Shown here: one piece after another, positions 8,151 through 45,322 of the stretch
How the letters are laid out: each line of letters starts with the position of its first letter
Position numbering within the stretch: the first letter of the stretch is position 1
Origin: a virus
Virus record (IMG/VR): IMGVR_UViG_3300042691_051270
Span: 1-59,833 of that record
Direction: 5' to 3' (one strand)
Length of the DNA: 59,833 bases
Translations under genes and position numbers: made by a program
Notes under the pieces: model-generated
The model's input: the letters and a program-made list of their open reading frames with translations, nothing else
Database searches by the model: none
What the model was told of the DNA's origin: nothing

Positions 8151-10835
8151 TCAGATTTTTTTAAAAGATGATTTCTGCTTTAAAGAAGACAAGAGGGAGC
8201 TGTTCTTTTCAACATTAAAAATGTTTTCATTCATCTTTATGGATGAATCATCAATTAGTTTGGAAGAAAGAGAAGTCACCTTGACTCTTGGCGTTAAACC
8301 TTCGGGAGAGACATAAATTGTTTCAGAATAAGCAGGTGTGTCGATGTCAAATTCTGACATTATAGGCACAACGATGTAATAAATGCTTCCCAAATCTAAA
8401 TCAGTCAATTGATGGTAAATGTAATTCTTGCAAGTTCTTCCAACAAAACTTCTTATTCCGTTCACTACTTTCATAACAACAAAAGAGTCTAAAACTTCCT
8501 GTATATTGTTATTTGAAGACCAGCTTATTCTTACAGTATTTACGTCGATTCTATCCAGGTCTATTTGATCTATTGAATAATACTGAGAAGAAGATTCGAT
8601 TTGATATTGAGCAGTAAGTCCAAAAGACTCAGAAGTAAAGTTTTCATATGCATCAACAACAGGAATTCCATGATTATCATCAGGGTAAAGTTTTCCAAGC
8701 TTTACGACTGGTTGTTTCCACTTGTACGGAAGATAAAACCATTCTTTCCCTCTGTTGTCAATACCTCTTACCACAAATTTCTTAAAAATTTCTACAGGAT
8801 TCTTTTTATAAGTAAAGATCTGGTAGACGTAAGAATGGTTGGGATTTATGGATTTTACGTTGTTTATCTTTTGAGTTTCTTGATTATCTATAAATGTACC
8901 ATCTGAAACTAAATCGAAAGTTTCTCTCTCTGAGGTATTCAAGTTAGTTCTTACTACTTCATGAAAGAAAATATTTGAATATTGCGGTATTCCTGAACTG
9001 TCCTCCCCAAGAGGCGAAGAGGAATTTGTTGCGGGATTTAGAAACTGATTGTAAAGTTCTCCTAGCTGATCTTTAAGAGTTTGAGTTATTTTTTCATTTT
9101 CAGATTTTGATATTGAAGTGAGAAGATCGAATGATACGCTTGGAGAAAGATCAGACGTAGAAAATTTTGAATTTAGCAAATTTACATTTATTGATGCGTC
9201 TGTTGAAGGACCAGAAGAGCTCTTAAAAACAGAAAAATTTGAATATACCGATATTTCTTCTTTTGAATTATCTTCAATACAAATTGCTATTGCATAATAC
9301 TCATATACTCTTCCAATATTAGTAAACCTATCTGTTATTGTCGAAATATTACTACTGTTAACAATCTTAATTGTCTCAATTGGTTCAAAATTACCTTCCG
9401 TGTTATCTGTGCAATCTCTTCTATACAGAGACAAAGAAATACAATTAGAAGGAACATTTAAAACATCTATTTTAATTCCATTCTTTCCAAAATGACTTGG
9501 CAATATTGTTAAAGCTCCTATGCTTTTATAGCCAGGCCCTATAACAATATTGGTAAATGTATTTGACTCTTTGTTCTGTGAATCTAGCGGTATCACTCTA
9601 AGAATTGATAGCTTGGACTTGGTTAAGACTTGAAATTCATTTATTTTTTCATTTTTTAATTGAGATATCTTTTCATAGGGAGAAACATTACCTTGAGCGT
9701 CTATAGACTTTAGATAGACATTATACCCATCTATTTTTTTAGAAATTTCTCTATCGATGACTGTTACATTGCAAAGAGAAGATTCTTCATTTTTTTGAAA
9801 AAATTTAGCATAAGAAAATTTAACTTCCGGAGGATTAGAAATGCAATTAAAAGCCTCTACATGACTGGGAAGAAATAAATCTGTAGAGAATGTTTCGTCA
9901 ATAATATTAGATCCTATCTTGTATAGATCGAATCTAACTTCTAAGTTGACGTTCTTGTTATTTTTTTTAATGGGAATAGAATGACTAATAGAGATATCAT
10001 CAAGATTCTTAGTAGAAATTCTCTTTTCATACAATGTAGAAGTATCTTCAGCAGGTGCTGGTTGGATGTCGCTCAAGTAGTACTTGACTATATCAAAAAA
10101 TAGCGGAGGATTTCCACTGGATATATGACTCATTCTTAACTTAGGATTTTCAAACAAGGACTCCGAGCTAAGACTTGAAATAGATTCTTCAGATAGCGGG
10201 TATGTTATATCGCACAACTCTGAATTAATTCGAGTTAGAACGGAAGATGGATCTATTCTATTCGTGTCTATATCGCTAACAATGCTAGATTTTTCATCTA
10301 AAATGATTTGATTTCTAAGCTGAGTATCTCTGTCTCTGGCTTCTTTTCTACTCTTCTTAAAGTCTTCGGCATATAGTTCCGTGAGAGTATACTTGTTTGA
10401 AGCAGCTTCAACTATTAATGAATTGATTAATATTGATGATTGTCCTATAAACTGCTCTTTTTTATCAATGTCTTTTACTAAATTCAATCCTGAATAAAGC
10501 TTGTTAGAAACTTTATCAGGCAGAATTTTTGTAGGAGAATTTGAAAACTTTTTCTGAGGAGTGGTCGAAAGTGGATAATTGATAACCCTGTTTGCTGTTT
10601 CGCTTGCAATATTAGAAAACAAATCAGAGTAATTATCTTCTTTTCTTTTTACAGTTATTACAACTTTGTCATACTGTCTAGGATCTTTTCTTGAATTTTT
10701 TAAAGAAATACTAAAAGTAAAGTTAAAGTTAAAAAAATCAGTGCTCTCAGAAATTAATTCTGCGAAAGTGTCCTTATTAATCTTTAGTACGGAAGAAGAC
10801 CTATCAGAAATTACAGGTTTTTGATAAATTTTCAT
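8151..10835 (-). CDS. Structural protein with several FN3-like segments, 894 aa
   Basis: At least three segments look like fibronectin-III domains: one around residue 370 (KIDGYNVYLKSIDAQGNVSP), a middle region with repeated SLYRRD and YEYYAIAI strands, and one near residue 780 (DRIDVNTVRISWSSNNN, then SFVVMKVVNG and IYYIVVPI). The N-terminal 300 residues are charged and lysine/serine-rich. The start overlaps the stop of the upstream 479-aa gene by four bases. Multi-FN3 proteins are common in phage tails and receptor-binding assemblies. The domain calls are by eye and the role is inferred. Confidence 0.6.
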   Translation of the reverse strand: MKIYQKPVISDRSSSVLKINKDTFAELISESTDFFNFNFTFSISLKNSRKDPRQYDKVVITVKRKEDNYSDLFSNIASETANRVINYPLSTTPQKKFSNSPTKILPDKVSNKLYSGLNLVKDIDKKEQFIGQSSILINSLIVEAASNKYTLTELYAEDFKKSRKEARDRDTQLRNQIILDEKSSIVSDIDTNRIDPSSVLTRINSELCDITYPLSEESISSLSSESLFENPKLRMSHISSGNPPLFFDIVKYYLSDIQPAPAEDTSTLYEKRISTKNLDDISISHSIPIKKNNKNVNLEVRFDLYKIGSNIIDETFSTDLFLPSHVEAFNCISNPPEVKFSYAKFFQKNEESSLCNVTVIDREISKKIDGYNVYLKSIDAQGNVSPYEKISQLKNEKINEFQVLTKSKLSILRVIPLDSQNKESNTFTNIVIGPGYKSIGALTILPSHFGKNGIKIDVLNVPSNCISLSLYRRDCTDNTEGNFEPIETIKIVNSSNISTITDRFTNIGRVYEYYAIAICIEDNSKEEISVYSNFSVFKSSSGPSTDASINVNLLNSKFSTSDLSPSVSFDLLTSISKSENEKITQTLKDQLGELYNQFLNPATNSSSPLGEDSSGIPQYSNIFFHEVVRTNLNTSERETFDLVSDGTFIDNQETQKINNVKSINPNHSYVYQIFTYKKNPVEIFKKFVVRGIDNRGKEWFYLPYKWKQPVVKLGKLYPDDNHGIPVVDAYENFTSESFGLTAQYQIESSSQYYSIDQIDLDRIDVNTVRISWSSNNNIQEVLDSFVVMKVVNGIRSFVGRTCKNYIYHQLTDLDLGSIYYIVVPIMSEFDIDTPAYSETIYVSPEGLTPRVKVTSLSSKLIDDSSIKMNENIFNVEKNSSLLSSLKQKSSFKKI

Positions 10836-12271
10836 TTGACTACCTCTAGAGAGCTTCTATCATCTCTTGAAAAAACAAGAGTAAACATATTGACAAAGCA
10901 GGTAGTTCCTCTGTTGTCCAAAAATGTCTTGCCTATAAAAAATATTCTGTTTAAGTCTTGAGAATTATTAGACAAATCTCCAAAATCAACAATATCAAGC
11001 TTGTTCACTGTATTGTTTGTAATTTCAAAAATTTGACCAATGACCCTATTCTTTCTAGAAGTAAAGTTAAAGTAAACAGGCTTTTCATCATTGTCAAATG
11101 ATTTAATTTCTTCCATTATGTCTGAATAAGACATTCTCACTTCGTTATCTCCCCAAGAAGGATAATTCCCTAAAAGATAGGGCGTTAAATTCTCTATTCT
11201 TGTCTTGTCAGACACGGTTGAATCTGAAGTTTTTACTATGGGAGGAAGATACATGAAATTTTCTAGATGACTCAATTTTTTATCATTAAAGAGTGAATCA
11301 ATTGAATTGAGAGACGGAGGTGCTTCCCTAAAAGATTTGAGAGATTTTGAAGATGATTTTGAGAGATCGAATGTTAATTCATTTTCAGACAAGAAAAATT
11401 TATCATCTTCAAAAAGTCTGTCAACGCTTGAAATTGTCTGCAAATCAATAAAATTGTCAAGAGAAGAAGTTAAAATTCCCCTTATCTGACTTGAAAAAGA
11501 TGCATTTTCAATTTCGTCGGTAAGAATTTTTCCACCAATTGCTCCTTCTTCTAGTTGTAGCGGAGAGGAAAGAGTACCCGTTGCAAATAACTTAGTTCCT
11601 GAAAAAGATTCTAAGAAATCCAAATAAACTGAGTCATTAATGGCCCTGCAAGAAACATCAGGACCACCAATGTTCTTTAAAGAACTAATGGCTCCAGATA
11701 TTGCAATGCAAAATTCTTTGGGACCAGAACCTCCCCTTGTTCCCACATATCCAATATAAGGTCCTCCAGGAGAAGGTGCAGTTACTGTGTATGTGCCTCC
11801 TAAGAGTCTAGGTTTAACCAGTATGCTTCCTGTGACACCTAGAGAATCAGAATAAATGAATCCTTTGTTGTCATCGTTTATATTCTCTGTAATTAAAGAA
11901 GCCTTTATTCTCCTTCCATGATGGTATTGATATGCAGTTAGTCTACCATTGACTATGCTTCCTTCAGCCATAGCGTTGGGTATATTTCCTTCAGGAGTTT
12001 CTACTTTAATATCCTGAGATCTGAAGGGAACAAGTTTTCCTTCATCGTTTGATTCAAATGTTATTTGATCTTGCGGAAGATTACAGGCTTCAAAATAAAT
12101 TTTATCAGTTGGGTCTTGGTGTCCGTTAACTAAGTCTGGTATATAGGAGACGCCTGAGTCAGTAAAAGTTGCATAAGAAACTTCAAAAGTACCCTGCGCC
12201 ATTTGCCTTCTTCCCTCTGAGGTTAGAATGGCATCTATTATTCTAGATCTATTATCTAATATTCCGCTCAT
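10832..12271 (-). CDS. Structural protein with N-terminal IIDAILT-GR module, 479 aa
   Basis: Begins MSGILDNRSRIIDAILTSEG and shares its first 40 or so residues in pattern with the 249-aa protein at 1421-2170. The middle has a glycine-rich stretch (PSPGGPYIGYVGTRGGSGPK, about residues 164-183); the C-terminal third is acidic and serine-rich, with segments such as YPSWGDNEVRMSYSDIMEEI. It is the first gene of the left structural run, 51 bases after phoH, and is coupled by ATGA to the next gene. The shared module may be a docking domain that joins these proteins to a common partner. Function not recognised; virion role inferred. Confidence 0.6.
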   Translation of the reverse strand: MSGILDNRSRIIDAILTSEGRRQMAQGTFEVSYATFTDSGVSYIPDLVNGHQDPTDKIYFEACNLPQDQITFESNDEGKLVPFRSQDIKVETPEGNIPNAMAEGSIVNGRLTAYQYHHGRRIKASLITENINDDNKGFIYSDSLGVTGSILVKPRLLGGTYTVTAPSPGGPYIGYVGTRGGSGPKEFCIAISGAISSLKNIGGPDVSCRAINDSVYLDFLESFSGTKLFATGTLSSPLQLEEGAIGGKILTDEIENASFSSQIRGILTSSLDNFIDLQTISSVDRLFEDDKFFLSENELTFDLSKSSSKSLKSFREAPPSLNSIDSLFNDKKLSHLENFMYLPPIVKTSDSTVSDKTRIENLTPYLLGNYPSWGDNEVRMSYSDIMEEIKSFDNDEKPVYFNFTSRKNRVIGQIFEITNNTVNKLDIVDFGDLSNNSQDLNRIFFIGKTFLDNRGTTCFVNMFTLVFSRDDRSSLEVVK

Positions 12272-12322: not shown

Positions 12323-13726
12323 TTAAAGAATCTTAGAAGCAAGAGTTGCAAGCTCACTGCGTTCTCCCTTGAGAAGAGTTACGTGACCTGAGATTTCTTG
12401 GTCCTTAAACTTCTCAACAGCGTGTGTGAGACCGTTGGTGAAGGTGTCCACGTGATTGTTGTCGATCTGTTCAACATCACCAGTGAGAACAATCTTTGTG
12501 CCTTCGCCAGCACGAGTCACGATGGTTTTTAACTCGTGCATCGAGAGGTTCTGCGCCTCGTCGATGATGATGAATGCGTTGGGGATTGAGCGGCCGCGGA
12601 TGAAGGTGATCGCCTCCACCTCGATGAGGCCCTTCGATTGCATTAACTCGAGGAAAGGATCCTTGCTGAGACCTGATGTTCCACTGCCGCCTGCGAGTTC
12701 ATCCATCCGCTTCTTGCTACGGCTGTTTCCCTTCTTACCAGACTTGCTGCTGAGGAGGTACTCGAGGTTGTCCCTGATGGGAGCAATCCATGGTTCCATC
12801 TTCTCAGCAAGAGTGCCGGGCAGGAAGCCGATGTCTCGTCCTACTGGTTGAACTGGTCGAGAAACGATAAGCTTCTGGTATGGTCCATCGTTTCCCATTG
12901 CCTCGAGTTGCTCCAATCCTGCCGCAATGGCGATGAGAGTCTTTCCACAGCCCGCCTTGCCGGTGAGTGTCACCAGTTTGACACTGGGATCCATCAGGAG
13001 TTCGATAGAAAATGTCTGTTCTTTGTTACGTGGTTTCACACCAAAGACTTGATCGATTTTTCTGAGGTGGTGGAGCATGTCTCCCTTGACCCTACAGATC
13101 GCAGACTTGAGAGTGTTACCTTCGGAATCAACTGACTTGATGACGAGTATCTGATTGGGATACAGTTTCTCCGTGGTTACGTTGTCCATGTGGATAGAGT
13201 CTCTTGCGTAGAACATCTCTACGACATCGTAAGGAACCACGAATACTTTCACGCCTGTGTAGAGATGCTCTGCAGAATCAGTGGCTCTGTTAGACAGATA
13301 GTCCTGAGCCTCGATGCCTAGAGAAGAGCACTTAACACGGACGTTGATGTCCTTGGAAACGAGGATTGCTTCAGGAACTTCCCGCTGAAGCATCAGGACG
13401 AATCCAATGATCATATTGTCTACCGAAGATCCAACAACAAGCTCGGGCGGGAGAAGTGCGTTGTATCCAGTCGGTGAGGACATCACTCTAAGAATTCCTC
13501 CGGAAGGTAGAGAGACACCTTCTTTTAGAGAACCTGATTCACTAATCTTATCGAGGATCCTGTTGACCTCTCGAGCGGTTCGTCCTACCTCATCTGACCT
13601 GCCTTTATGTTTGTCAAGTTCTTCCAAGACAAGGATCGGAAGGATCACATCATTGTCTTGAAAGTTATTGAAGCAGTTTGGATCGCTGAGGAGGACGTTT
13701 GTGTCGAGTATGTAAGTTTTTTTCAT
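12323..13726 (-). CDS. phoH: PhoH-family ATPase with N-terminal PIN domain
   Basis: Two domains are visible. Residues 1 to about 150 form a PIN-like nuclease domain, with Asp8 in YILDTNVLL and acidic residues in LVLEELDKHK (35-38). The C-terminal half is the PhoH P-loop ATPase, with Walker A GKAGCGKT at 256-263 and Walker B in FIIIDEAQN. This is the PIN-PhoH (PhoH2/YlaK) arrangement, known to couple RNA unwinding with RNA cleavage in bacteria. PhoH is very common in marine phages, with no settled role. Base composition is clearly more GC-rich than the structural genes beside it, suggesting a different history. The length of 467 aa is normal for the fused form. Confidence 0.92.
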   Translation of the reverse strand: MKKTYILDTNVLLSDPNCFNNFQDNDVILPILVLEELDKHKGRSDEVGRTAREVNRILDKISESGSLKEGVSLPSGGILRVMSSPTGYNALLPPELVVGSSVDNMIIGFVLMLQREVPEAILVSKDINVRVKCSSLGIEAQDYLSNRATDSAEHLYTGVKVFVVPYDVVEMFYARDSIHMDNVTTEKLYPNQILVIKSVDSEGNTLKSAICRVKGDMLHHLRKIDQVFGVKPRNKEQTFSIELLMDPSVKLVTLTGKAGCGKTLIAIAAGLEQLEAMGNDGPYQKLIVSRPVQPVGRDIGFLPGTLAEKMEPWIAPIRDNLEYLLSSKSGKKGNSRSKKRMDELAGGSGTSGLSKDPFLELMQSKGLIEVEAITFIRGRSIPNAFIIIDEAQNLSMHELKTIVTRAGEGTKIVLTGDVEQIDNNHVDTFTNGLTHAVEKFKDQEISGHVTLLKGERSELATLASKIL

Positions 13727-13786
13727 GTGTATTAGAAGATGACTTATACAAAAATCATTCCTTGCTAAATTATCTTACACAGATCT

Positions 13787-14053
13787 ATGAGCAACAATCA
13801 AGAAAAAATAAAGTTAAATGTAGTGAAAGAAAAATGCTATGATGCTGTAGAAAAAAGCTCTTGCAAATGTGAGAGAAAATCTTGTAAACAGTGGATAGAT
13901 TTCCCAAAAGGTAAAAATTGTATTTTAATAACGAGTCAGGCCGGACCTTTAACCCTAAACGAGATTGGGAAGATCTACGGCCTGACGAGAATGAGAATTT
14001 GTCAAATAGAAAAAAATATTTATCAAAAAATTAGAAGCTTTATTCAAAGCTAA
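13787..14053 (+). CDS. Small Cys-rich protein with sigma-70 region 4-like HTH, 88 aa
   Basis: The C-terminal half, TLNEIGKIYGLTRMRICQIE (residues 56-75), matches the sigma-70 region 4 helix-turn-helix pattern (TLEEIG..LG.TRERIRQIE), the part of sigma that reads the -35 element and touches the polymerase flap. Ahead of it, Cys26, Cys28, Cys33 and Cys45 (CKCERKSC plus a later C) could bind zinc. No regions 1-3 are present. The gene stands alone on the + strand between minus-strand genes and ends on a strong intrinsic terminator, so it is probably its own transcription unit. It could be a phage transcription regulator, or supply a region-4 function missing from the gp55-like factor at 42637-43422. 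The HTH is clear; the role is inferred. Confidence 0.75.
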   Translation: MSNNQEKIKLNVVKEKCYDAVEKSSCKCERKSCKQWIDFPKGKNCILITSQAGPLTLNEIGKIYGLTRMRICQIEKNIYQKIRSFIQS

Positions 14054-14290: not shown

Positions 14291-14494
14291 CTACTTCTCT
14301 TGTTTTCCAGCTTTGTCAGTCTCAATCATGAGCTTAACAATCTCTTTTGACTTTGACTGTAACTGGCGAAGACCCTTGCGAGCCCGCACGCCGGCAGCAG
14401 CAACGCCCTTTGCATTCTTGGCAACATCGGCCTCGAGAGCTTCAACTAGGGCCTTCAACTCATTCCACTTCGATACGATTGGGTTATCACTCAT
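14291..14494 (-). CDS. Histone H1/Hc1-like DNA-binding protein, 67 aa
   Basis: Short helical basic protein. The central run NAKGVAAAGVRARKGLRQLQ, followed by SKSKEIVKLMI, resembles the N-terminal half of chlamydial histone H1-like Hc1 (a GNKAAAQRVR..SIKLEKVAK pattern), a family of nucleoid-binding proteins. The acidic N-terminal helix (ALVEALEADVAK) also fits. The AAA..K-rich tail of full Hc1 proteins is absent, but the adjacent gene at 14050-14289 has a basic tail. A strong AGGAGGT ribosome-binding site (14506-14512 on the minus strand) lies 11 bases before the ATG and is partly inside a hairpin. It may compact phage or host DNA. The similarity is judged by eye. Confidence 0.7.
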   Translation of the reverse strand: MSDNPIVSKWNELKALVEALEADVAKNAKGVAAAGVRARKGLRQLQSKSKEIVKLMIETDKAGKQEK

Positions 14495-16199: not shown

Positions 16200-16243
16200 G
16201 TTGGCCTGACATTATACCGCGTGGGGTACACTTTGCACCGGTA

Positions 16244-19473: not shown

Positions 19474-19547
19474 ATACATTTCTCCCTAGCTCAGTACTTT
19501 CTTAAGAGTTAAATAGAAATAAATTTAGAAATTTGAGAAATGAAATT

Positions 19548-21464
19548 ATGAATTTTAAAGAACAGATCTTTGTAAATCCAAAAAATTTAATCAGAGAAGA
19601 TACAGATATTATTTTTGTAGCTGATTTATTTGAATCTGATTATGCTGGGGGAGCCGAGATGACCTCAGAAGCTTTGATAGAAAGTTCTCCACTTAATATT
19701 CAAAAAATCTACTCAAAAGATGTAAATCTTTCTGTTCTGAACAATGGTGTAAAAAAACACTGGGTTTTTGGAAATTTTTCGGGACTTAACCCAGAACTTA
19801 TTCCAAGCATCGTGGCAAATATCAAGTATTCAGTTCTTGAATACGACTACAAGTTTTGCAAGTATAGATCCCCAGAAAAGCACTTGGCTCTTGAAGGAAG
19901 TAATTGTAATTGTCACAACAATATAAACGGTAATATAATCTCTTCTTTCTACTACGGAGCTCAGTCTCTTTGGTGGATGTCTGAAAAACAGAAGAATCTT
20001 TATCTTTCTCTTTTTCCTTTTTTGAATGAAAAAGATAGCACAGTTCTATCTTCTGTATTTTCAAAGAAAACTCTTGCGTCTTTAAGAGTCCTAAGAGAAA
20101 CTCTTAAGAATGATCCTAAGCGTGGATGGTTGGTTCTTGGTTCTCAATCCTGGGTAAAAGGATTCGAAGCTGCCAAAAAGTGGTGCGAAGACAATAGCAA
20201 ACCTTACGAAGTCGTATGGAACGTTCCCTATGAGCAGCTTTTAGCCAAGATGGCAGCAGCTGAAGGTTTTGTATACTTGCCAGCCGGAGGAGACACATGC
20301 CCACGAATGGTGATAGAGGCGAAACTTTTGGGATGTAATCTACACATCAACGACAACGTCCAGCACAAAGACGAAGAGTGGTTCAATACTGACGATTTAA
20401 ATTCGATCGAAGAGTATCTTACCAGTGCTACAGACGTTTTTTGGAACTCGATAAGGAACATCATCAACAAGAAGCCCACGATAAGTGGTTACATAACAAC
20501 TTACAATTGTGAGAAACAAGGTTATCCCTATGTTCAGTCAATCAAATCTATGCTAAATTTTTGCGATGAAGTTTGCGTAGTGGATGGAGGTTCAACAGAT
20601 GGAACATGGGAAAAACTGACAGATCTTTGCGAGAATCACAATAACAAGAAAATTGTAATCAAGCAAATAAAAAGAAACTGGGAAGACCCAAGATTTGCCA
20701 TATTTGACGGTATGCAAAAAGCAGAAGCAAGAGCTTTGTGTACTTCTGATTTTTGTTGGCAAATGGATTCAGATGAAGTTGTTCATGAAGACGATGCTAA
20801 AAAGATAATTGATTTATGTTCGAAATTCCCACCTGGTGTTGAACTGATATCGCTTCCGGTCATAGAGTACTGGGGAGGTCCTAATAAAATTAGGATCGAT
20901 ATTCAACCATGGAAGTGGAGGCTAAGTAGAAACTTATCCCACATAACCCACGGAATACCTTCTTATCTTAGAAAAGAAGACGAGAAGGGTATATATGCGC
21001 TTCCTGGTACTGATGGATGCGATATGATTCATAAGCAGACAGGAATTCCAATTCAGCACCTAACTTTTCATACAAACGAATCAGAGAGAGTAAGAATCGC
21101 TGCTCTCGCTGGTAACAAAGAAGCCCTAGATGTGTATGAAAAGTGGTTCAATCAGATTGTACAAAATATTCCTGGAGTTCACCATTATTCTTGGTACAAC
21201 ATGTCAAGAAAGATGAGACTTTACAGAGACTACTGGACTAGACACTGGAATTCTCTCTTTAACGGGTCTCTAGAAGACAATGAAAAAACAAATATGATGT
21301 TTGATGTTCCTTGGTCTCAAGTCACAGAAGAAATGATAGAAACCAGAGCAAAAGAACTATCAGAAAAAACTGGTGGCTGGATTTGGCATCAGAAGTGGAA
21401 TGGATCGAATACGCCTCACATTCAAGTTAATAGACCTGAACCAGGAGTAATGTCTGAGACATGA
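19548..21464 (+). CDS. Bifunctional glycosyltransferase, GT-B-like plus GT2 domains, 638 aa
   Basis: The N-terminal half (to about residue 300) is GT-B-like: it opens with DIIFVADLFESDYAGGAEMT, has GWLVLGSQSWVKGFEAAKKW and ends with TCPRMVIEAKLLGCN near residue 250, the acidic donor-site region of GT4-type enzymes. From residue 312 a GT2 (GT-A) domain begins, ISGYITTYNCEKQG, with VVDGGSTDGTW and the metal-binding DSDE near 407. Two linked transferases suggest consecutive sugar additions. I start at the ATG at 19548; a TTG at 19533 is also in frame. First gene of the island; its stop overlaps the next start (ATGA). Confidence 0.85.
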   Translation: MNFKEQIFVNPKNLIREDTDIIFVADLFESDYAGGAEMTSEALIESSPLNIQKIYSKDVNLSVLNNGVKKHWVFGNFSGLNPELIPSIVANIKYSVLEYDYKFCKYRSPEKHLALEGSNCNCHNNINGNIISSFYYGAQSLWWMSEKQKNLYLSLFPFLNEKDSTVLSSVFSKKTLASLRVLRETLKNDPKRGWLVLGSQSWVKGFEAAKKWCEDNSKPYEVVWNVPYEQLLAKMAAAEGFVYLPAGGDTCPRMVIEAKLLGCNLHINDNVQHKDEEWFNTDDLNSIEEYLTSATDVFWNSIRNIINKKPTISGYITTYNCEKQGYPYVQSIKSMLNFCDEVCVVDGGSTDGTWEKLTDLCENHNNKKIVIKQIKRNWEDPRFAIFDGMQKAEARALCTSDFCWQMDSDEVVHEDDAKKIIDLCSKFPPGVELISLPVIEYWGGPNKIRIDIQPWKWRLSRNLSHITHGIPSYLRKEDEKGIYALPGTDGCDMIHKQTGIPIQHLTFHTNESERVRIAALAGNKEALDVYEKWFNQIVQNIPGVHHYSWYNMSRKMRLYRDYWTRHWNSLFNGSLEDNEKTNMMFDVPWSQVTEEMIETRAKELSEKTGGWIWHQKWNGSNTPHIQVNRPEPGVMSET

Positions 21465-22204
21465 AAAACAAATTTGTTTTTGTAATACCTTACTATAACT
21501 GCAAAGAAGACATAGAAAAGACAATATTTTCTATGTTGTCTCAGAGCTATGATAACTGGCGTGCTATTTTAATCAATGATCTATCCACAGATGGAACAGA
21601 TTTGTTAGTAAAAGAAACGTGCAATAGCTTGCCTGAAATCCTAAAAAGAAAATTTCTTTTGGTGAACAATAAAGAAAAGCACGGAGAAGTAAGAAATACT
21701 TTAGAATCAATTAAGTCAATAGATGATAGAGAAATTGTCTGTAGACTTGACGGAGGAGACTGGTTAACCGAAAATGACCTTCTTTATATTTTAGATCAAG
21801 TATACCAAGATGAAAATGTCGCCGTGGCATGGACTGCACATAGATGGAGCTATACGACTCAAAACATTTCTGGTCCACTTAATCTTAGAAATAATCAAAC
21901 AGTCTACCAGCACCCATGGGTATCAAGTCATCTAAAGACTTTTAGATGCGGACAATTAAAGAAAGTACCTGACAAAAATTTTAGAGATGAGACTGGTGAT
22001 TACATCATGATAGCATGTGATCAAGCTATATTTTTGCCAATGATGCATTTATCACTAAGCGAAGGTAAAAAATTACAATTTGTACCTGTTGTTGGCTACC
22101 ATTACAATATAGATCTTTCCAATAAAAATCTGTTTCTTAGCGAAAGATCCATAAGACAAAAAATGTCTGCAGAGACTATTCGATCAAGAGGATTTATATC
22201 TTGA
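21461..22204 (+). CDS. Family 2 (GT-A) glycosyltransferase, 247 aa
   Basis: Begins FVFVIPYYNCKEDIEKTIFS, the usual GT2 opening, followed by INDLSTDGTD and, near residue 95, CRLDGGDWLTEND, which holds the metal/nucleotide-binding acidic motif. Length suits a single-domain soluble enzyme; no membrane segment is seen. Coupled by ATGA to the gene before and by TTGA to the gene after. Donor and acceptor cannot be told. Confidence 0.85.
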   Translation: MKNKFVFVIPYYNCKEDIEKTIFSMLSQSYDNWRAILINDLSTDGTDLLVKETCNSLPEILKRKFLLVNNKEKHGEVRNTLESIKSIDDREIVCRLDGGDWLTENDLLYILDQVYQDENVAVAWTAHRWSYTTQNISGPLNLRNNQTVYQHPWVSSHLKTFRCGQLKKVPDKNFRDETGDYIMIACDQAIFLPMMHLSLSEGKKLQFVPVVGYHYNIDLSNKNLFLSERSIRQKMSAETIRSRGFIS

Positions 22205-23100
22205 AAATAATTCTTGACAATGTCAATTTAAATTCTCTTTCGGGTCCAAATTCATTTGGAAGAAGACTAAAGAGTGAAATTGAAAGATCGAATCTTCATA
22301 AATTTGTAGAAAAAGAACCTGCAGACGTTCAACTTTCTTTTATAAGTGCAACAGCCAAAGTAGCGCCCTTGGCGCTAAGATTGGATGGTATATACTTCAA
22401 TACCAGACAAGATTGGCAGTCTAATAATTCATTGATTAAAAAGTCATTTGATTCTGCAGACATTGTTATCTATCAGTCAAAATTTAACAAAGAACTAACT
22501 GAAAGATATTTCTCAACATCGAAAAATTCTGTCATAATAGGAAATGGAACTTCATTAGAAGAGATAGAAAAAATACCTACTAATAACTCTAGTATTCTTG
22601 ATCAATTTTCAGAGATTTGGGCATGCTCTTCTTCCTGGAGACCTCACAAGAGACTAAGAGAAAACATCAGATATTTTTTTGAAAAATCTCCTAAAGATGC
22701 TTGTCTAGTAATAATCGGAGAAAATCCTGACCATCTCGTAAAAGATGCTAGAGTATTTTACACAGGGCAGATTTCTTGGGAGAGCTGTATTTCTCTATAT
22801 AAAAGAGCAAAAGTTTTTATTCACCTCGCTTTTTTAGATCATTGTCCAAATGTAGTCGTTGATGCTCGAGCATCCGGTTGTGAAATAGTAGTTTCATCTT
22901 CTGGTGGTACAAAAGAAATATCTGGTTTTGGATCTACCATAATAAAAGATATAGACTGGGACTTTAAACCAATTGACCTTTATTCCCCGCCAGATCTTAA
23001 TTTTTTAGAAACTTATAAAAATAATATAGAGTCTAATATAGACATAACACAAGTTTCTAAAAAATACTTGAATGCACTAGAGGAGATAGCTCTAACATGA
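22201..23100 (+). CDS. GT4-like glycosyltransferase, 299 aa
   Basis: Starts with TTG overlapping the previous stop (TTGA). A short GT-B enzyme: N-terminal MKIILDNVNLNSLSGPNSFG, middle WACSSSWRPHKRLRENIRYF, then VFYTGQISWESCISLYKRAK and LDHCPNVVVDARASGC. These follow the order of GT4 enzymes, though the usual E-x7-E is represented here by D and E. No membrane segment. Donor sugar unknown. Confidence 0.8.
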   Translation: MKIILDNVNLNSLSGPNSFGRRLKSEIERSNLHKFVEKEPADVQLSFISATAKVAPLALRLDGIYFNTRQDWQSNNSLIKKSFDSADIVIYQSKFNKELTERYFSTSKNSVIIGNGTSLEEIEKIPTNNSSILDQFSEIWACSSSWRPHKRLRENIRYFFEKSPKDACLVIIGENPDHLVKDARVFYTGQISWESCISLYKRAKVFIHLAFLDHCPNVVVDARASGCEIVVSSSGGTKEISGFGSTIIKDIDWDFKPIDLYSPPDLNFLETYKNNIESNIDITQVSKKYLNALEEIALT

Positions 23101-23816
23101 GAGGAATAATTCTTGCTGGAGGTACTGGAAGTAGACTCTATCCGCTGACCAAAGTTACAAATAAATGTCTACTTCCAGTAGGAAGAGAGCCGATGATTTT
23201 TAGAATGATAGATCTTTTAAAAAGATCCAATATAACTGACATTATGATTATAACTGGTCTGGAACACATGGGTCAAGTCGTTTCAGTCCTCGGTTCAGGA
23301 TCGGACTTGGGGTGTTCTATAACATATAGAGTTCAAGACGTCGCAGACGGAATTGCGGCTGCACTAAAATTATGCAGAGATTTTGTGAGAGACGATAAAT
23401 TCGTTGTATTACTTGGAGACAATATTTTTAGTGATCACGAGCAAATCAAAGGATTCTTAAAAGAATTTGAATCATCTAGTGGAAGATATAGGCTTTTTGG
23501 AAAAAAAGTCAAAGATCCCGAAAGATTCGGAGTACCAGTATATAAAGATGGAATTGTAGTCGACATTGTTGAAAAACCAAAATTTCCTCCCACAAACATC
23601 GCGATAGTAGGTCTGTATTGCTATAGTCCTGAAGTCTTTCCAGTGATAGACAGTTTAAAAATTTCAGGAAGAGGTGAATATGAGATAAGCGATGTCAATT
23701 CCTGGCTTGTTAAAAATAGTATCGGCGATGTCGTAGAATTAAAGTGTGAGTGGATAGACGCAGGAACACATGAGTCTTATAAAAGAGCTAACGAAACAGT
23801 TTGGAGACTAAAGTGA
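23097..23816 (+). CDS. rmlA: Sugar-1-phosphate nucleotidyltransferase (RmlA-like)
   Basis: Nucleotide-binding signature at the N-terminus, GGTGSRLYPLTKVTNKCLLP (residues 8-27), with the catalytic Lys23; the metal-binding Asp lies in LLGDNIFSD near 108 and EKPK near 160. At 239 aa it is the short RmlA form that makes dTDP-glucose (or a related NDP-sugar) from sugar-1-phosphate. With the RmlD-like and RmlB-like genes that follow, it suggests a dTDP-deoxysugar route. ATGA overlap with the previous gene. Confidence 0.85.
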   Translation: MRGIILAGGTGSRLYPLTKVTNKCLLPVGREPMIFRMIDLLKRSNITDIMIITGLEHMGQVVSVLGSGSDLGCSITYRVQDVADGIAAALKLCRDFVRDDKFVVLLGDNIFSDHEQIKGFLKEFESSSGRYRLFGKKVKDPERFGVPVYKDGIVVDIVEKPKFPPTNIAIVGLYCYSPEVFPVIDSLKISGRGEYEISDVNSWLVKNSIGDVVELKCEWIDAGTHESYKRANETVWRLK

Positions 23817-24634
23817 AAGCAATAATTGGTTCTGGAAAAGTTTCTAACATAATAAAAGAAGACAGCGACGTAGTTTTTTCCCATAGAGAAATAGAGATAA
23901 AAGATATTGAATCAGTAAGAAAGTGTCTTTCTTCTATTCCTAAAGGAACTACAGTTATTAACACTGCTGCAAAAATAAATTTGGAGTGGTGCGAAGAAAA
24001 TGAAGATGAGTGCTATGAAGTAAATGTAGTAGGAGCTCTTAATGTCGCGAAGGTTTGTAGAGATCTCGGTCTTCACCTGTTTCACTTGAGTAGCGGATGT
24101 ATTTTTGATGGAATGGAGACGGGAAGAGCTTATGACGAGAATGATAAGCCCAACCCATCTGCATGGTATACAAAGTGCAAAGCACAAGCAGACGATCTTA
24201 TAATGAATCTTGGATATGAAAAAATAACAATCGGTAGACCAAGACAGCTGGTCTCTTCGGTACCAAATCCAACAAACATGCTAACAAAATTTGCTTCTTT
24301 GAAGTCAGGAAATTTTATTGATGTTCCTAATAGTATGACATGTATAGAAGACATGAAAGACATGATTAACCACCTGATAGAGGGTAATCATTATGGCATA
24401 TTTAATCTTGCAAATTCCGGAACTGTAACTCCTTACAAAATAGCTAAAAGAGTAAAGAGGACAATAAGCCCAGACCTTGAAGTCAAAAAGATTGACTATA
24501 GTTCTTATTTGAAAACTTTAAAAGTAAAAAGAGTAAATACTATTTTGAGTCTTGAAAAGATAACGTCTACAGGTTACATTCCGAGGAACTCAGAAGTTGC
24601 TCTTGATTGGTGTCTTGAAAATTACGGAAAATAA
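23813..24634 (+). CDS. NAD(P)-dependent sugar reductase/epimerase (RmlD-like)
   Basis: I start at the GTG at 23813, which overlaps the rmlA stop (GTGA); a TTG four codons earlier is in frame but less likely. Short-chain dehydrogenase fold of the RmlD branch: VINTAAKINLEWCEENEDEC, the HLSSGCIFDG strand, and catalytic Tyr119 and Lys123 in WYTKCKAQ. The N-terminal nucleotide loop (IIGSGKVSN) is short, as in RmlD. It could be dTDP-4-dehydrorhamnose reductase or another 4-ketosugar reductase; substrate not certain. No RmlC (3,5-epimerase) is seen in the window. Confidence 0.75.
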   Translation: MKAIIGSGKVSNIIKEDSDVVFSHREIEIKDIESVRKCLSSIPKGTTVINTAAKINLEWCEENEDECYEVNVVGALNVAKVCRDLGLHLFHLSSGCIFDGMETGRAYDENDKPNPSAWYTKCKAQADDLIMNLGYEKITIGRPRQLVSSVPNPTNMLTKFASLKSGNFIDVPNSMTCIEDMKDMINHLIEGNHYGIFNLANSGTVTPYKIAKRVKRTISPDLEVKKIDYSSYLKTLKVKRVNTILSLEKITSTGYIPRNSEVALDWCLENYGK

Positions 24635-25570
24635 ATGAGAGTTATCATAACGGGTGGAGCTGGATTTATTGGCAGTCATGCTGTAAGACACTTCGTAGAA
24701 TCTGGTGATGATGTTCTCAATGTTGATAAGTTGACCTACGCTTCAAATTTAGAAACAACTAAACTTTCAAAGTTTGTCAATCTTGATATTAAAGACACAA
24801 AATCTCTGTTAGAAGAAGTAGAAAAATTTTGTCCCGACGTAATTGTTAATTTTGCCGCAGAGACACATGTTGATAATTCAATAAACGATTGCAATCCTTT
24901 TATTGAATCCAATATTTTTGGAACTACTTCCGTACTAAAAGTATGTAAGGAACTAAAAATTAAACTTCTTCATATATCAACAGACGAAGTATATGGTCCT
25001 GCATCTTCTAATACATTCACAGAAGATTCTATACTAAATCCAATGAATCCTTATTCTGTTACAAAAGCTGCAGCAGATCTAATGATCAAGTCCTGGTGGA
25101 ATACTTTTGGAATTGACTATATTATAGTTAGACCTTCCAACAATTACGGCCCAGGTCAATACAAAGAAAAGCTAATTCCTAAGTTTCTTGATTGTATAGA
25201 AAATTCAAAAAAATTTCCCCTATATGGAGCAGGAGACCAGGAAAGAGAATGGACTTACGTTGAAGACACTGCAAAAATTGTAAGATCTATTCTAAATAAA
25301 GAATCTGTTGTCTGGAATAACACGTATAACTTGAGCTCCGGCATCTCTTTGAAGAATATCGAAGTATTAAGAAAAGTTCTTAACGCTTACAACAAAAAGA
25401 AAGACAAAACTATTAAATTTGAAGATATTGTAGTTACTTCACAAGATAGACCAGGACATGACAAACGGTACAGCATATCTTCAAAAAAGCTTTCAAGAAT
25501 AATAAAAACTAATTACACATCTTTTGATGACGGACTTGAAAAAACAATAAATGGAATGACAAATGAATAA
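24635..25570 (+). CDS. rmlB: dTDP-glucose 4,6-dehydratase (RmlB-like)
   Basis: Extended SDR enzyme with GGAGFIGSH at residues 7-15, the dehydratase motif STDEVYG with Thr116, Asp117 and Glu118, and Tyr140/Lys144 in YSVTK, plus RPSNNYGPGQY. The Asp-Glu pair after Thr is diagnostic of sugar 4,6-dehydratases. At 311 aa it is slightly shorter than bacterial RmlB (about 340-360). It should convert dTDP-glucose to the 4-keto-6-deoxy sugar. It begins right after the RmlD-like stop. Confidence 0.88.
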   Translation: MRVIITGGAGFIGSHAVRHFVESGDDVLNVDKLTYASNLETTKLSKFVNLDIKDTKSLLEEVEKFCPDVIVNFAAETHVDNSINDCNPFIESNIFGTTSVLKVCKELKIKLLHISTDEVYGPASSNTFTEDSILNPMNPYSVTKAAADLMIKSWWNTFGIDYIIVRPSNNYGPGQYKEKLIPKFLDCIENSKKFPLYGAGDQEREWTYVEDTAKIVRSILNKESVVWNNTYNLSSGISLKNIEVLRKVLNAYNKKKDKTIKFEDIVVTSQDRPGHDKRYSISSKKLSRIIKTNYTSFDDGLEKTINGMTNE

Positions 25571-25922
25571 GCAAATTCACGATTCTTTATCTAAGCTACT
25601 TGTTTCTAAGCTAGAGTCCTACAAAGAGAGTAATTTAAATTCTTCTACGTGTATTCAAATTTATACAGATATCTTCAATTGTCTAGTAGACGTATTTCAA
25701 GAGTCAAACATTCCCATTTCTAATGAAGGTGTTAATCTAATAGCACAGATGTATTATGATTCCGTAAACATAAACGGAAGAGAAGAACTAGATCCAAACA
25801 TCTTTGACAAGAGAGCAAAGCTTGAAAATATTACAACCAAAGAATTGGCGATGCTAGCAACGATGTTTAATGGTACTGCTTTTTCTCCAATATTTGTTCA
25901 CGAAATTAAGAAGAGGTCTTGA
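25563..25922 (+). CDS. Small helical protein of unknown function in glycan operon, 119 aa
   Basis: No domain recognised. Helical, with segments IYTDIFNCLVDVFQESNIPI, NLIAQMYYDSVNINGREELD and ITTKELAMLATMFNGTAFSP. Not secreted, no cysteine cluster. It overlaps rmlB by eight bases and gmd by one base, so it is co-translated with them and may belong to a shared assembly step or be an unrelated passenger. Confidence 0.6.
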   Translation: MNKQIHDSLSKLLVSKLESYKESNLNSSTCIQIYTDIFNCLVDVFQESNIPISNEGVNLIAQMYYDSVNINGREELDPNIFDKRAKLENITTKELAMLATMFNGTAFSPIFVHEIKKRS

Positions 25923-26917
25923 TGAAAAAGGCATTTATAACAGGTGTGACAGGTCAAGATGGAAGCTATCTTGTAGATCTTTTAATAGACAAAGGATACG
26001 AAGTACATGGTCTTATAAGACAGTCAACACAATTCACACCAGATAGGTGGGGTCATCTCAAGAATGCTATGTTGACCAACAAGCTAGTTGTCCACCACGG
26101 AGATTTAATGGACGCGTCTGGTATGAGAGGACTGCTAGAAGACATAGGGCCTGATGAAGTTTATAATCTTGCAGCTCAAAGTCACGTAGGTCTTTCTTTC
26201 GATCAGCCTGTTAATACTTCTGAAGTAACTGCTTTAGGTGCACTTAATCTTCTCGACGCAATTAGAAGATCAAAAATTAATTGTAAATTTTATCAAGCAT
26301 CATCCAGCGAAATGTTTGGCAAAGTGAGAGAAACTCCACAAAATGAATCTACGCCGTTCTACCCTAGAAGCCCATATGGATGTGCAAAGGTGTATGCCCA
26401 TTACATCACCCAGAACTATAGAGAATCATATGGAATATTTGCATGTAGCGGAATTCTTTTTAATCATGAGTCTGAGCGCAGAGGAGAAAATTTCGTCACA
26501 AGAAAGATAACGAGGGCTGTTGGAAGAATTAAGGAAGGTCTTCAGGAAGATCTTAAGCTGGGAAATACTTCTGCCATGAGAGACTGGGGTTATGCTCCTG
26601 AATATGTGGAAGCAATGTGGCGAATGTTACAGCATGAATCTCCTGAAGATTTTGTGATTGGAACAGGAGTGCAGCATTCTGTTCATGATTTTGTGAATGC
26701 AGCATTTGAAGCTGCTCAACTTGATCCTAAAAAATATTTAAAGATAGACGAGAAATTCATGAGGCCTTCAGAAGTTGATACTCTGACAGGCGACTACAAC
26801 AAAGCAAAAACTTTACTTGGGTGGTCTCCCAAAGTTGATTTTAAGTCTTTGGTCACTAAAATGGTAGTTCATGACATTGAACTTGCAAAAAGAGAAAAGG
26901 CTTCACTTGGTCTATGA
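25922..26917 (+). CDS. gmd: GDP-mannose 4,6-dehydratase
   Basis: Strong match to GMD: FITGVTGQDGSYLVDLL at the N-terminus, YNLAAQSHVGLSF, SSSEMFGKVRETPQNE with Glu130, and Tyr152/Lys156 in SPYGCAK, then NHESERRGENFVTRKI, a GMD signature. It should make GDP-4-keto-6-deoxymannose, the precursor of GDP-fucose, GDP-rhamnose or GDP-perosamine. The next enzyme for those sugars is not obvious here unless the RmlD-like protein or the host supplies it. The start is the ATG at 25922, sharing one base with the previous stop. 331 aa, slightly shorter than bacterial GMD. Confidence 0.93.
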   Translation: MKKAFITGVTGQDGSYLVDLLIDKGYEVHGLIRQSTQFTPDRWGHLKNAMLTNKLVVHHGDLMDASGMRGLLEDIGPDEVYNLAAQSHVGLSFDQPVNTSEVTALGALNLLDAIRRSKINCKFYQASSSEMFGKVRETPQNESTPFYPRSPYGCAKVYAHYITQNYRESYGIFACSGILFNHESERRGENFVTRKITRAVGRIKEGLQEDLKLGNTSAMRDWGYAPEYVEAMWRMLQHESPEDFVIGTGVQHSVHDFVNAAFEAAQLDPKKYLKIDEKFMRPSEVDTLTGDYNKAKTLLGWSPKVDFKSLVTKMVVHDIELAKREKASLGL

Positions 26918-27807
26918 ACAAAGTATTTCTACTTAGACCATCAGAAGACTGGATAGTAGACAGGCTTGTTGATGAGTGGTATCAAGATAATTTTGATATT
27001 AGCACAAACAACATAGTTGAAGCTGATGTAGTCTGGTTGATGGCAAGTTGGTGTTATAACAATATACCCAGAAATTTCTTGACAAAAAAGAAGGTTATAA
27101 CTACGATACATCATATCGTAGAAGATAAATTTAACAACAATAAGCTTAAAGAATTTCTAGATAGAGATTCTTTGACATCAGTTTACCACGTTCCAAATTT
27201 TAGAACAGAAAAATTTGTAAAAAATATAACAGATAAACCTGTTCATGTAATTCCTTATTGGGCAAATCAAAAAATTTGGAAAAGGACAGGAGATAAGAAA
27301 GATCTTAGAGCAAAGCATGGACTGCCTGTCGATAGTTTCTGCGTGGGATCATTTCAAAGAGATACGGAAGGTTCCGATCTTTTGTCTCCAAAGTTAGAAA
27401 AAGGCCCAGATCTTCTAGTTGACTATCTAGAGAAGATAAAAAGAGATGATCTTCATGTTGTCCTTGCAGGTTGGCGTAGACAATATGTCATTAATAAGCT
27501 GATGGACTTAAACATCAATTACACATATTTTGATAGACCATCTCAGAATGTCTTGAACGAGCTATATCAATGCCTTGATCTATACCCTGTTACATCTAGG
27601 TGTGAAGGCGGTCCACAGTCTTTGATAGAATGCGGTCTTCTCAATATACCGGTCGTATCCAGGCCCGTAGGAATCGCTGAGATTGTTCTTGAAAAAGATT
27701 CAATATCAGAAGATGTTTCCAAAGCAATTTCTCAAGTTCCTAACGTAGATCTTCTAAAGATTCCATCGGGTTATTCATCTTATAGAAATTTAATATTATC
27801 TCTCTAG
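26914..27807 (+). CDS. GT4-like glycosyltransferase, 297 aa
   Basis: GT-B fold elements: VIPYWANQKIWKR (acceptor-domain end), FCVGSFQRDTEGSDL, an LEKGPDLLVDYLEKIK helix, VVLAGWRRQYVINKL and, at the donor site, CEGGPQSLIECGLLNIPVVS with an E-x7-E arrangement. No membrane segment. ATGA overlap with gmd. Donor unknown. Confidence 0.85.
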   Translation: MNKVFLLRPSEDWIVDRLVDEWYQDNFDISTNNIVEADVVWLMASWCYNNIPRNFLTKKKVITTIHHIVEDKFNNNKLKEFLDRDSLTSVYHVPNFRTEKFVKNITDKPVHVIPYWANQKIWKRTGDKKDLRAKHGLPVDSFCVGSFQRDTEGSDLLSPKLEKGPDLLVDYLEKIKRDDLHVVLAGWRRQYVINKLMDLNINYTYFDRPSQNVLNELYQCLDLYPVTSRCEGGPQSLIECGLLNIPVVSRPVGIAEIVLEKDSISEDVSKAISQVPNVDLLKIPSGYSSYRNLILSL

Positions 27808-27808
27808 G

Positions 27809-28510: not shown

Positions 28511-28514
28511 TAAC

Positions 28515-31232: not shown

Positions 31233-31236
31233 AAAA

Positions 31237-31980: not shown

Positions 31981-31984
31981 TTTA

Positions 31985-33245: not shown

Positions 33246-33246
33246 A

Positions 33247-37426: not shown

Positions 37427-37432
37427 GAATAG

Positions 37433-42332: not shown

Positions 42333-42640
42333 TGATAGAAATTGTTTCAGTATCATTTTTTTTGATTGCGTCATTTCTAGCCATAAGTCTAAAAAAGAAC
42401 ATAGAGCTTATGGAAAAGATAGACGAAATACAAGAAGCTCTTGAGAATTCTTTAGAAATACTCGAAATCCAATCCAAAAAGATCGAGCAAAAAGCTAAAT
42501 TAGAGGTTTTTTCTGATGAACCCGTTGTGAGAAACTTAATAAAAGACATCATAGAATCAAAAAATGCTGTCGTACGAGTTGCAAAATTACTAGATGATTC
42601 TATGATTGAAGATTCAATAGAAGGCAAAGAAGAAGAATGA
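42332..42640 (+). CDS. Small membrane-anchored coiled-coil protein, 102 aa
   Basis: The ATG at 42332 shares one base with the previous stop (TAATG). Residues 2-20 (IEIVSVSFFLIASFLAISL) form a hydrophobic N-terminal segment, followed by coiled-coil helices (MEKIDEIQEALENSLEILEI) and an acidic tail. A longer reading beginning at 42239 would overlap the glycosyltransferase and is unlikely. Function unknown; it precedes the sigma factor gene with a four-base overlap. Confidence 0.6.
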   Translation: MIEIVSVSFFLIASFLAISLKKNIELMEKIDEIQEALENSLEILEIQSKKIEQKAKLEVFSDEPVVRNLIKDIIESKNAVVRVAKLLDDSMIEDSIEGKEEE

Positions 42641-43422
42641 AAACAAGAATAGCAAAAAAAAGAAAGGAGAAAAAGATAGAGAAAGTCTCCGAAGAAATTA
42701 ATAAAACTCCTGAGAAAAAGGAGACCAAAGAGGAAAAAGACAAACTCAAACTTTATTTCAACTCAGACACCCAAGATGCAATTGTAGCATATCAGTCAGA
42801 AAATTTAAAGAAAGAAAAAGACAAACTCTACGTAGAGAAGATACTACCAGCATTCAAGAAGTTAGTTGAAAATCTTATCAACATTCATAAGTTTACTGGG
42901 ATGCATGACACATATGAAGAGCTTAAGAACGATTGTGTCAATTTTCTATTCGAGACTATCCACAAGTTTGATGCATCGAGAGGAACGAATGCTTTTTCCT
43001 ACTTCAATGTCGTTGCCAAAAATTGGCTTATTATAAAGACGAAACAAAAGTCACAGAGAACAAAAAAGAGCGTAAGTCTAGATGATCCTCAGTCACTTAC
43101 GACTCATGAATCTCTAATAATAGAGGAATACAATACTGTAGAAGCTCAGGATCTTTTCTTTGAATCTGGTGGTACAGTTGAAGGCACTATCGGCCTCCTG
43201 TACGAAATTAGGTCTAGAGTGAAAACAGAAAACGAGCTGACTTGTATTAATGCAATAATTACAATTTTTGAGAATATTGACGAGATTGACCTCTTGAATA
43301 AGAGTGCAGTTTTACTCTACATGAGAGAGCTTTCAGGTCTTTCTCCAAAGCAACTTACAACAGCAATGCAATCCATAAAGAGAAGGTATAAAAAGTCTAG
43401 AATCGACTTTAGAGATATCTGA
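42637..43422 (+). CDS. T4 gp55-like late sigma factor, 261 aa
   Basis: After a very basic N-terminus, residues 60-130 carry a sigma region 2-like segment: ILPAFKKLVENLINIHKFTG, then ELKNDCVNFLFETIHKFDAS and GTNAFSYFNVVAKNWLI, the FD..RGTNAFSYF pattern of T4-type gp55 proteins that bind core polymerase and open late promoters. The C-terminal 60 residues are helical and could form a helix-turn-helix (ELSGLSPKQLTTAMQSIKRR). Located just before the baseplate genes, which are late genes in T4. I do not see a clean set of TATAAATA late promoters in the window, so its promoter may differ. Confidence 0.75.
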   Translation: MKTRIAKKRKEKKIEKVSEEINKTPEKKETKEEKDKLKLYFNSDTQDAIVAYQSENLKKEKDKLYVEKILPAFKKLVENLINIHKFTGMHDTYEELKNDCVNFLFETIHKFDASRGTNAFSYFNVVAKNWLIIKTKQKSQRTKKSVSLDDPQSLTTHESLIIEEYNTVEAQDLFFESGGTVEGTIGLLYEIRSRVKTENELTCINAIITIFENIDEIDLLNKSAVLLYMRELSGLSPKQLTTAMQSIKRRYKKSRIDFRDI

Positions 43423-43439: not shown

Positions 43440-43790
43440 ATGAAAAAAGACAAGACAATGACTTTAGACGAAAAAATCAAAGATTTTTCTGATCTATTGC
43501 AACAGCTGGACGGTGTAACTGATAAGAAAAAAAGACTCTGGAAAGAGATTTATGAAAATGCTGTAACTGATAGGCAGAATGCATACGTCTTGTTCACTAC
43601 GCTCGTGGAAATGGTTCAAGACAAAAGCACTGAGCACGCCATTCATGGAAAAACAATGGCCACCTACATAGAGAGAATGAGTCGAGCAAATGATCAAATC
43701 ATAAAGCTCGCAGAATTAGTTTCAAAATCTGAGCAAAAGCAAGAAGAAGAAATTGACGCGGAAGAAATGTTTAAAAAGATAGGATCTTGA
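43440..43790 (+). CDS. Helical protein of unknown function, 116 aa
   Basis: A good AGGAG site (43426-43430) precedes the ATG. Predicted all helical, with DKKKRLWKEIYENAVTDRQN and ATYIERMSRANDQIIKLAEL, and an acidic tail (EEEIDAEEMFKKI). Size and helicity would fit a small terminase subunit or a late-transcription helper, but no diagnostic motif is seen. It lies between the sigma factor and the baseplate genes. Confidence 0.6.
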   Translation: MKKDKTMTLDEKIKDFSDLLQQLDGVTDKKKRLWKEIYENAVTDRQNAYVLFTTLVEMVQDKSTEHAIHGKTMATYIERMSRANDQIIKLAELVSKSEQKQEEEIDAEEMFKKIGS

Positions 43791-45267: not shown

Positions 45268-45322
45268 TCTCTGGCAACAAAAACTACGTACTCTAAGTTA
45301 AATTGATCGATAGTTAAGCTGT

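Follow-up and report, generated by a model that had tools for sequence, protein, structure and literature searches.

The T4 protein gp33 is described as structurally unrelated to sigma region 4, as clamping the flap tip and as tethering the sliding clamp (PMC7892883, excerpt), and a review of T4 asks why the late sigma domains 2 and 4, represented by gp55 and gp33, are always encoded by separate genes (PMC2988020, excerpt). In Bacillus subtilis, SigO-RsoA constitutes a two-subunit sigma factor (PMC10141391, excerpt), and phage SPO1 encodes two proteins of sigma type, gp28 and gp34, that regulate its middle and late genes (PMC9429907, excerpt). The phage group analysed here bears on the question raised for T4: a true region 4 stands alone beside a gp55-like sigma protein, with no detectable T4 clamp, and whether the two cooperate or serve different promoter classes would tell how phages dismantle sigma. 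Our analysis centres on a 59.8-kb viral record (the window, meaning the whole stretch of 59,833 nt) that encodes a small protein, denoted SIG4C, and the other features collected in Table 1.

Table 1. Position, strand and description of the window features discussed in the text.
Feature	Position (nt)	Strand	Description
PhoH-like gene	12323..13726	-	phrog_2765, E 7e-106; divergent neighbour of SIG4C
-35-like box ATACAA	13746..13751	+	Upstream of SIG4C
-10-like box ATTATC	13769..13774	+	17 bp after the ATACAA box, upstream of SIG4C
SIG4C	13787..14053	+	88 aa, ATG start; N-terminal Cys module and C-terminal helix-turn-helix (HTH) at ~52-85
Histone H1/Hc1-like small protein	14291..14494	-	PF07432, E 1.4e-11; synteny
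gp55-like late sigma protein	42637..43422	+	261 aa; sigma-2-like residues ~42-143; phrog_234
116-aa helical-hairpin protein	43440..43790	+	Directly downstream of the gp55-like gene; candidate gp33 counterpart
ATAGTTA, candidate late-promoter motif	45310..45316	+	13 nt before the gp25-like baseplate gene

SIG4C had been picked out in the initial annotation as a protein with a region-4 HTH, a description that held: its reading frame is exact and intact and contains TLNEIGKIYGLTRMRICQIE, and its residues 53-83 fit positions 19-49 of the 50-position Pfam model Sigma70_r4 (PF04545; E 7.3e-9, 35.5 bits; cut-off, 24.1), which assigns SIG4C to the sigma region-4 domain family. In PHROGs, the match is limited to the region-4 end of phrog_351, a large general sigma family (E 7e-6). 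Among PDB sequences, the single protein best matched actinobacterial SigA, in region 4 (E 2e-4), and the family profile reached region 4.2 of solved SigA structures at E 7e-6; these alignments nearly always covered residues ~51-84, with one weak longer alignment between profile positions 33-86 and RpoS (E 0.053). In the AlphaFold2 model (mean pLDDT 62.6), confidence is confined to residues ~51-88, the HTH; its N-terminal half is below 50 (mostly so for residues 1-33), and a low-confidence helix is predicted at 40-51. Foldseek gave no match to this model below E 0.001, and its list includes many region-4 structures over ~30 columns. Only region 4.2 is recognisable in SIG4C, and the flap-binding region 4.1 is not.

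The closest known relative is region 4.2 of the housekeeping factors SigA/HrdB, with which SIG4C has the HTH TLxEIGxxxGLTRxRIxQIE in common over ~31-33 aligned residues; unlike sigma-70, it comes without sigma-2, sigma-3 or a recognisable region 4.1, and has a Cys module instead. M69 and C72 of SIG4C deviate from SigA in the alignments. They correspond to E585 and R588 in the numbering of Escherichia coli sigma-70, while R68, R70 and Q73 are DNA-contact residues of the sigma type. With M69 and C72 in place of E585 and R588, DNA specificity should therefore differ from TTGACA.

Relatives were collected from IMG/VR in a first scan, which gave 27 (68 stretches matched the pattern), and in a profile scan, which gave 201 among 312 stretches, the best 80 of the 201 being kept. 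Across the collected loci, including the window and its own copy (L028), there are 84 SIG4C ORFs, or 74 distinct sequences judged by the last 85 residues. C17, C28, C33, C45, C72, N44, G53, L57 and G61 are identical in all 74, as are T67, R68, M69, R70, Q73, E75 and K76; the recognition helix is nearly invariant, and its sigma-type residues R68, R70 and Q73 are kept throughout. Against seven relatives, dN/dS was 0.04, 0.11, 0.07, 0.11, 0.12 and 0.18 in six pairs, synonymous sites being saturated in the seventh (L007). Given these values and the 27 relatives of the first scan, SIG4C is a real gene under strong purifying selection.

The family runs through a large group of uncultured phages related to T4, which come from freshwater and marine sources and include several of jumbo size. 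Yet, large as it is (201 IMG/VR stretches in one scan), it has no counterpart in INPHARED, where tblastn of 50,697 phage records with query P0001 gave no match at E 0.01, and the listings of a literature search contain no report of it. In cellular data it occurs in 1 of 64 pattern stretches in genome_contigs and in 1 of 150 genomes of that phylum, both being one and the same contig. This 305-kb contig (L161 / G066:C5), binned into a Methylococcaceae TMED69 MAG, is probably a phage genome, since PhoH, Hc1-like and gp55-like genes accompany SIG4C on it.

Cysteines 26, 28, 33 and 45 had been proposed as a possible zinc site. All four are present, but position 26 is unconserved (Cys in only 8 of the 74 sequences), and SIG4C has C17 and C72 besides. 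Because C17, C28, C33 and C45 are invariant, the plausible metal set shifts from 26/28/33/45 to 17/28/33/45; so amended, the set offers four potential ligands lying apart from the helix in 74/74 sequences, the number looked for in a zinc-binding protein. We infer that these four cysteines hold a metal, probably zinc.

The protein encoded at 42637-43422 had been read as a gp55-like carrier of region 2. This stands in so far as PHROG 234, ‘late sigma transcription factor’, matches its residues 42-143 (E 1.1e-5), but no Pfam region-2 model does, and its hhalign match to T4 gp55 is weak (p 0.0085, residues 37-139). A conserved C-terminal helical segment at residues ~200-252 (LLNKSAVLLYMRELSGLSPKQLTTAMQSIKRRYKK) is absent from T4 gp55, which has 185 aa. 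By eye, this segment looks like an HTH; considered as a region-4 HTH, it has neither a Pfam match nor an hhalign match to the SIG4C alignment, and the resemblance is kept as a visual impression.

An IMG/VR scan with the gp55-like protein gave 78 distinct loci. SIG4C was found in 20 of 38 gp55 records (35 IMG/VR records from these loci, T4, Flavobacterium phage immuto and Microcystis phage Mel-JY01) and, among the gp55-like IMG/VR records, in all 11 searched that reach 100 kb; it was not found in T4, immuto or Mel-JY01, all three gp55 carriers. Conversely, 32 of the 45 SIG4C records searched, drawn from both SIG4C scans, have the gp55-like gene, as do 17 of the 18 that are at least 100 kb long. 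The distance between the two genes is ~25-29 kb in the window, G002 and the MAG contig. Of 19 group records scanned with PF04545, 17 have no region-4 match besides SIG4C, the exceptions being G028 and G045. In the window, the SIG4C cluster is separated from the gp55-baseplate cluster by a long run of glycosyltransferase, sugar-nucleotide and sialic-acid-type genes (19533-38991; NeuB/NeuA-looking by eye).

Separate region-2 and region-4 proteins are thus carried together, as in a two-subunit sigma factor. The initial annotation had gone further and suggested that the phage may use a split sigma whose region-4 half still binds DNA. Spelled out, SIG4C would be the detached region-4 half, bind both the beta-flap and DNA and work with the gp55-like protein at late promoters. 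We consider this unlikely, although it has a two-subunit precedent in SigO-RsoA (PMC10141391, excerpt), and the reciprocal presence of the two genes in long records (11/11 and 17/18) fits it and would be equally expected under it. Since both genes seem to belong to the core of a single phage group, however, this co-occurrence is weak evidence by itself, and both the added C-terminal segment of the gp55-like protein and the distant gp55-like carriers immuto and Mel-JY01, which do without SIG4C, tell against a split.

A second candidate for the partner of the gp55-like protein is the 116-aa protein encoded next to it, which is found in 78/78 loci as well as in the window. Its gene starts at most 700 nt past the gp55-like stop codon in 76 of 79 cases and ~750-900 nt past it in the other three. 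The predicted structure is a helical hairpin (pLDDT 86), and all 57 distinct sequences end in a short acidic-hydrophobic motif such as IDPEEMF, the corresponding C-terminal ends being NTLDFLL in T4 gp33 and SLDFLYEAND in T4 gp55. According to the T4 review, ‘hydrophobic and acidic C-termini’ of gp33 and gp55 bind the sliding clamp (PMC2988020, excerpt), and by analogy the tail of the 116-aa protein would bind a clamp.

Identification of this protein as gp33 from position and tail drew no support from PHROG, Pfam, PDB-sequence, hhalign, Foldseek or VIA comparisons: hhalign against T4 gp33 gave p 0.094 and a probability of 0.6%, and no gp33 structure was among the matches listed by Foldseek and VIA. 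As sequence and fold comparisons were negative or uninformative, the protein is a gp33 candidate by position, size and tail only. Homology to the downstream genes of immuto (hhalign p 7.5e-4, probability only 25%) and Mel-JY01 (p 0.18) is not claimed. Sequence searches turned up no homologue of T4 gp33, and no gp33 is annotated in the examined Syn9 regions. That no gp33 is identified with certainty favours a split sigma; nevertheless, the gp33 role probably fits the 116-aa protein better than SIG4C, which is probably not the gp33 of this phage.

The replication genes of the group also differ from those of T4. Family-B DNA polymerase, the third domain of the bacterial clamp and the T4-type clamp (for which T4 itself was detected as a control) were each found in 0 of 15 group records (G002, G037, G024 and others), an absence of clamp and polymerase that is not proof because several of the 15 are fragments. 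PolIII alpha was present in eight of the 15, all eight of at least 187 kb. Genes for a T4-like virion and gp55 are, on these matches, combined with a different replisome in the group, and with no detectable T4-type DNA polymerase and clamp, the clamp-coupled late mechanism of T4 is therefore not simply transferable to it. Eight frames of the phage DnaE were inspected for a bacterial-clamp motif; seven had none, and the eighth had a single poor match (QNHRLF). By eye, the PolIII alpha frames in L244, L248 and L250 end in intein (Hint)-like sequence, suggesting inteins in the DNA polymerase of these phages.

Upstream regions, in which gene starts are those called by a simple script, contained a candidate late promoter. 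Three 7-mers, ATACTTA, ATATTTA and ATAGTTA, stood out in record G037, where the 203 upstream regions contain 38 copies of ATA[CTG]TTA (5.9 expected). Seven other records that were not used in choosing the motif, the window among them, have 51 copies where ~16 would be expected, but only 14 of its reverse complement (expected, ~15), so that enrichment is strand-specific. By raw counts, 21 of 51 distinct gp25 genes, that of the window included, have ATANTTA in the 60 nt ahead of them, and the motif is also upstream of gp6 in 9/44, the gp5-like gene in 2/54 and the gene at 10832-12271 in 1/47. We regard it as a candidate late promoter of the phage group. The T4 late promoter TATAAATA was found once against ~2.6 expected in 534 upstream regions of eight records, and is not used by the group in that form.

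When 105 of the 107 ATANTTA sites found are aligned, no upstream column rises above 0.21 bits, and a -35 box is therefore not apparent; in G037 alone, columns reach 0.43 bits over 27 full-length rows and are A/T-rich only. The split-sigma proposal is partly supported. In its favour is a stand-alone region 4.2 with a near-invariant helix, which almost all long records carry together with the gp55-like gene, but a late role for SIG4C is opposed by the candidate late motif, in which no -35 box is conserved, and by the separate gp33-like candidate beside the gp55-like gene.

PhoH lies divergently on the left of SIG4C in 77 of 84 listed places, the contig beginning too close in the other seven; on its right, the Hc1-like gene follows in almost all loci and then usually DinG and ClpP. 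SIG4C is a lone forward gene within a reverse cluster, with an upstream region of its own, the conserved phoH-SIG4C intergenic region being only ~60 bp. TATC(A/T)TACA is conserved there in close relatives. The pattern RWACAA-N17-AHTATM, chosen post hoc from the same upstream sequences of related records, is present ahead of SIG4C in 22 of 75 distinct sequences (mean 0.21 and maximum 3 in 200 shuffles), and a looser version occurs in 34 of the 75, at spacings of 17 (22), 18 (4) and 19 (8); the spacers between the boxes are strongly diverged and their spacing is fixed. This bipartite region looks unlike the candidate late motif ATANTTA and, as a promoter, would suit early or middle expression.

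A divergent position beside phoH, across so short a conserved gap, is also what a plain operator-binding regulator would have. SIG4C would then act without polymerase contact, repressing or activating, for instance, the phoH-SIG4C region, in keeping with the DNA-reading region 4.2 being recognisable in it and the flap-binding 4.1 not. We judge this reading, too, to be unlikely, as the recognition helix and its neighbours are still very sigma-like and no conserved palindromic operator has been demonstrated across the group.

The search for a conserved DNA site of SIG4C identified none in the group records. TTGTA(C/T)A from the phoH-SIG4C gap was dropped as a group-wide site, since elsewhere the number of upstream regions containing it is as low as 0 to 6 per record (raw counts). 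The GGTGCAAA motif, seen in G037 through the 7-mer GGTGCAA (15 upstream against 1.4 expected), is at most a doubtful candidate for the SIG4C target: some of its G037 sites look by eye like tRNA or terminator hairpins, it occurs genome-wide in G037 only 79 times against 41 expected, and it is absent from the top 7- and 8-mers listed for other records. Rfam gave no match on its sites, which in G037 lie ~37-40 nt before several start codons (L194-L208). As a separate observation, the window at ~16205-16240 and several relatives have TGCAAA ~15-17 bp before TATAAT-like boxes, upstream of DinG.

We favour, tentatively and at near-even probability, a reading of SIG4C as a DNA-binding factor derived from sigma region 4.2 and stabilised by cysteines (zinc?) that acts at a class of promoters other than the late ones. 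SIG4C is probably a switch in phage transcription; it would derive from region 4.2, the last part of a sigma-70 factor, and as its cysteines are invariant, a metal-held Cys module may replace the absent region-4.1 helix as the scaffold. Because the recognition helix is invariant, one specific short site of the -35 type would be common to the whole phage group. By binding it, SIG4C would steer host RNA polymerase at non-late, that is early or middle, phage promoters, among which may be the divergent one of its own with phoH. Service at another promoter class is suggested by the late motif without a -35 box together with the gp33-like candidate beside the gp55-like gene, and the bipartite upstream region of SIG4C itself, unlike ATANTTA, also leans against a late role.

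Phage proteins such as T4 AsiA target region 4 or the flap. Following this general strategy, SIG4C might instead appropriate RNA polymerase: it would compete with host sigma region 4 for the beta-flap and silence host promoters that depend on a -35 box, and its DNA binding would be of secondary importance. We hold this to be very improbable, as the residues kept invariant in SIG4C belong to the DNA-reading helix and not to a flap-binding face, and no region 4.1 can be recognised. A broader view, in which the gp55-like protein, the 116-aa partner and a zinc-held SIG4C form a three-part phage sigma that replaces the clamp-driven late switch of T4, we regard as decidedly unlikely; if it were true, host RNA polymerase would be run by a dismantled sigma whose parts are exchangeable for different promoter classes.

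Set against the described systems, SIG4C is like SPO1 gp28 and gp34 in being phage-encoded and of sigma type, but no relative of it was found in the 50,697 INPHARED records. With T4 gp33 it shares a small size, a gene far from that of gp55 and carriage with gp55. It differs from gp33 in having the sigma-4.2 HTH, and its C-termini vary and share no acidic-hydrophobic motif of the clamp-binding kind (the 20 commonest endings were listed); judged by sequence, SIG4C is not a T4 gp33. As in SigO-RsoA, sigma domains are split over two proteins, here encoded by co-carried genes, whereas the Cys module and candidate late promoters without a -35 box set SIG4C apart from that pair. By analogy, SIG4C may nonetheless functionally resemble one half of a two-subunit sigma factor.
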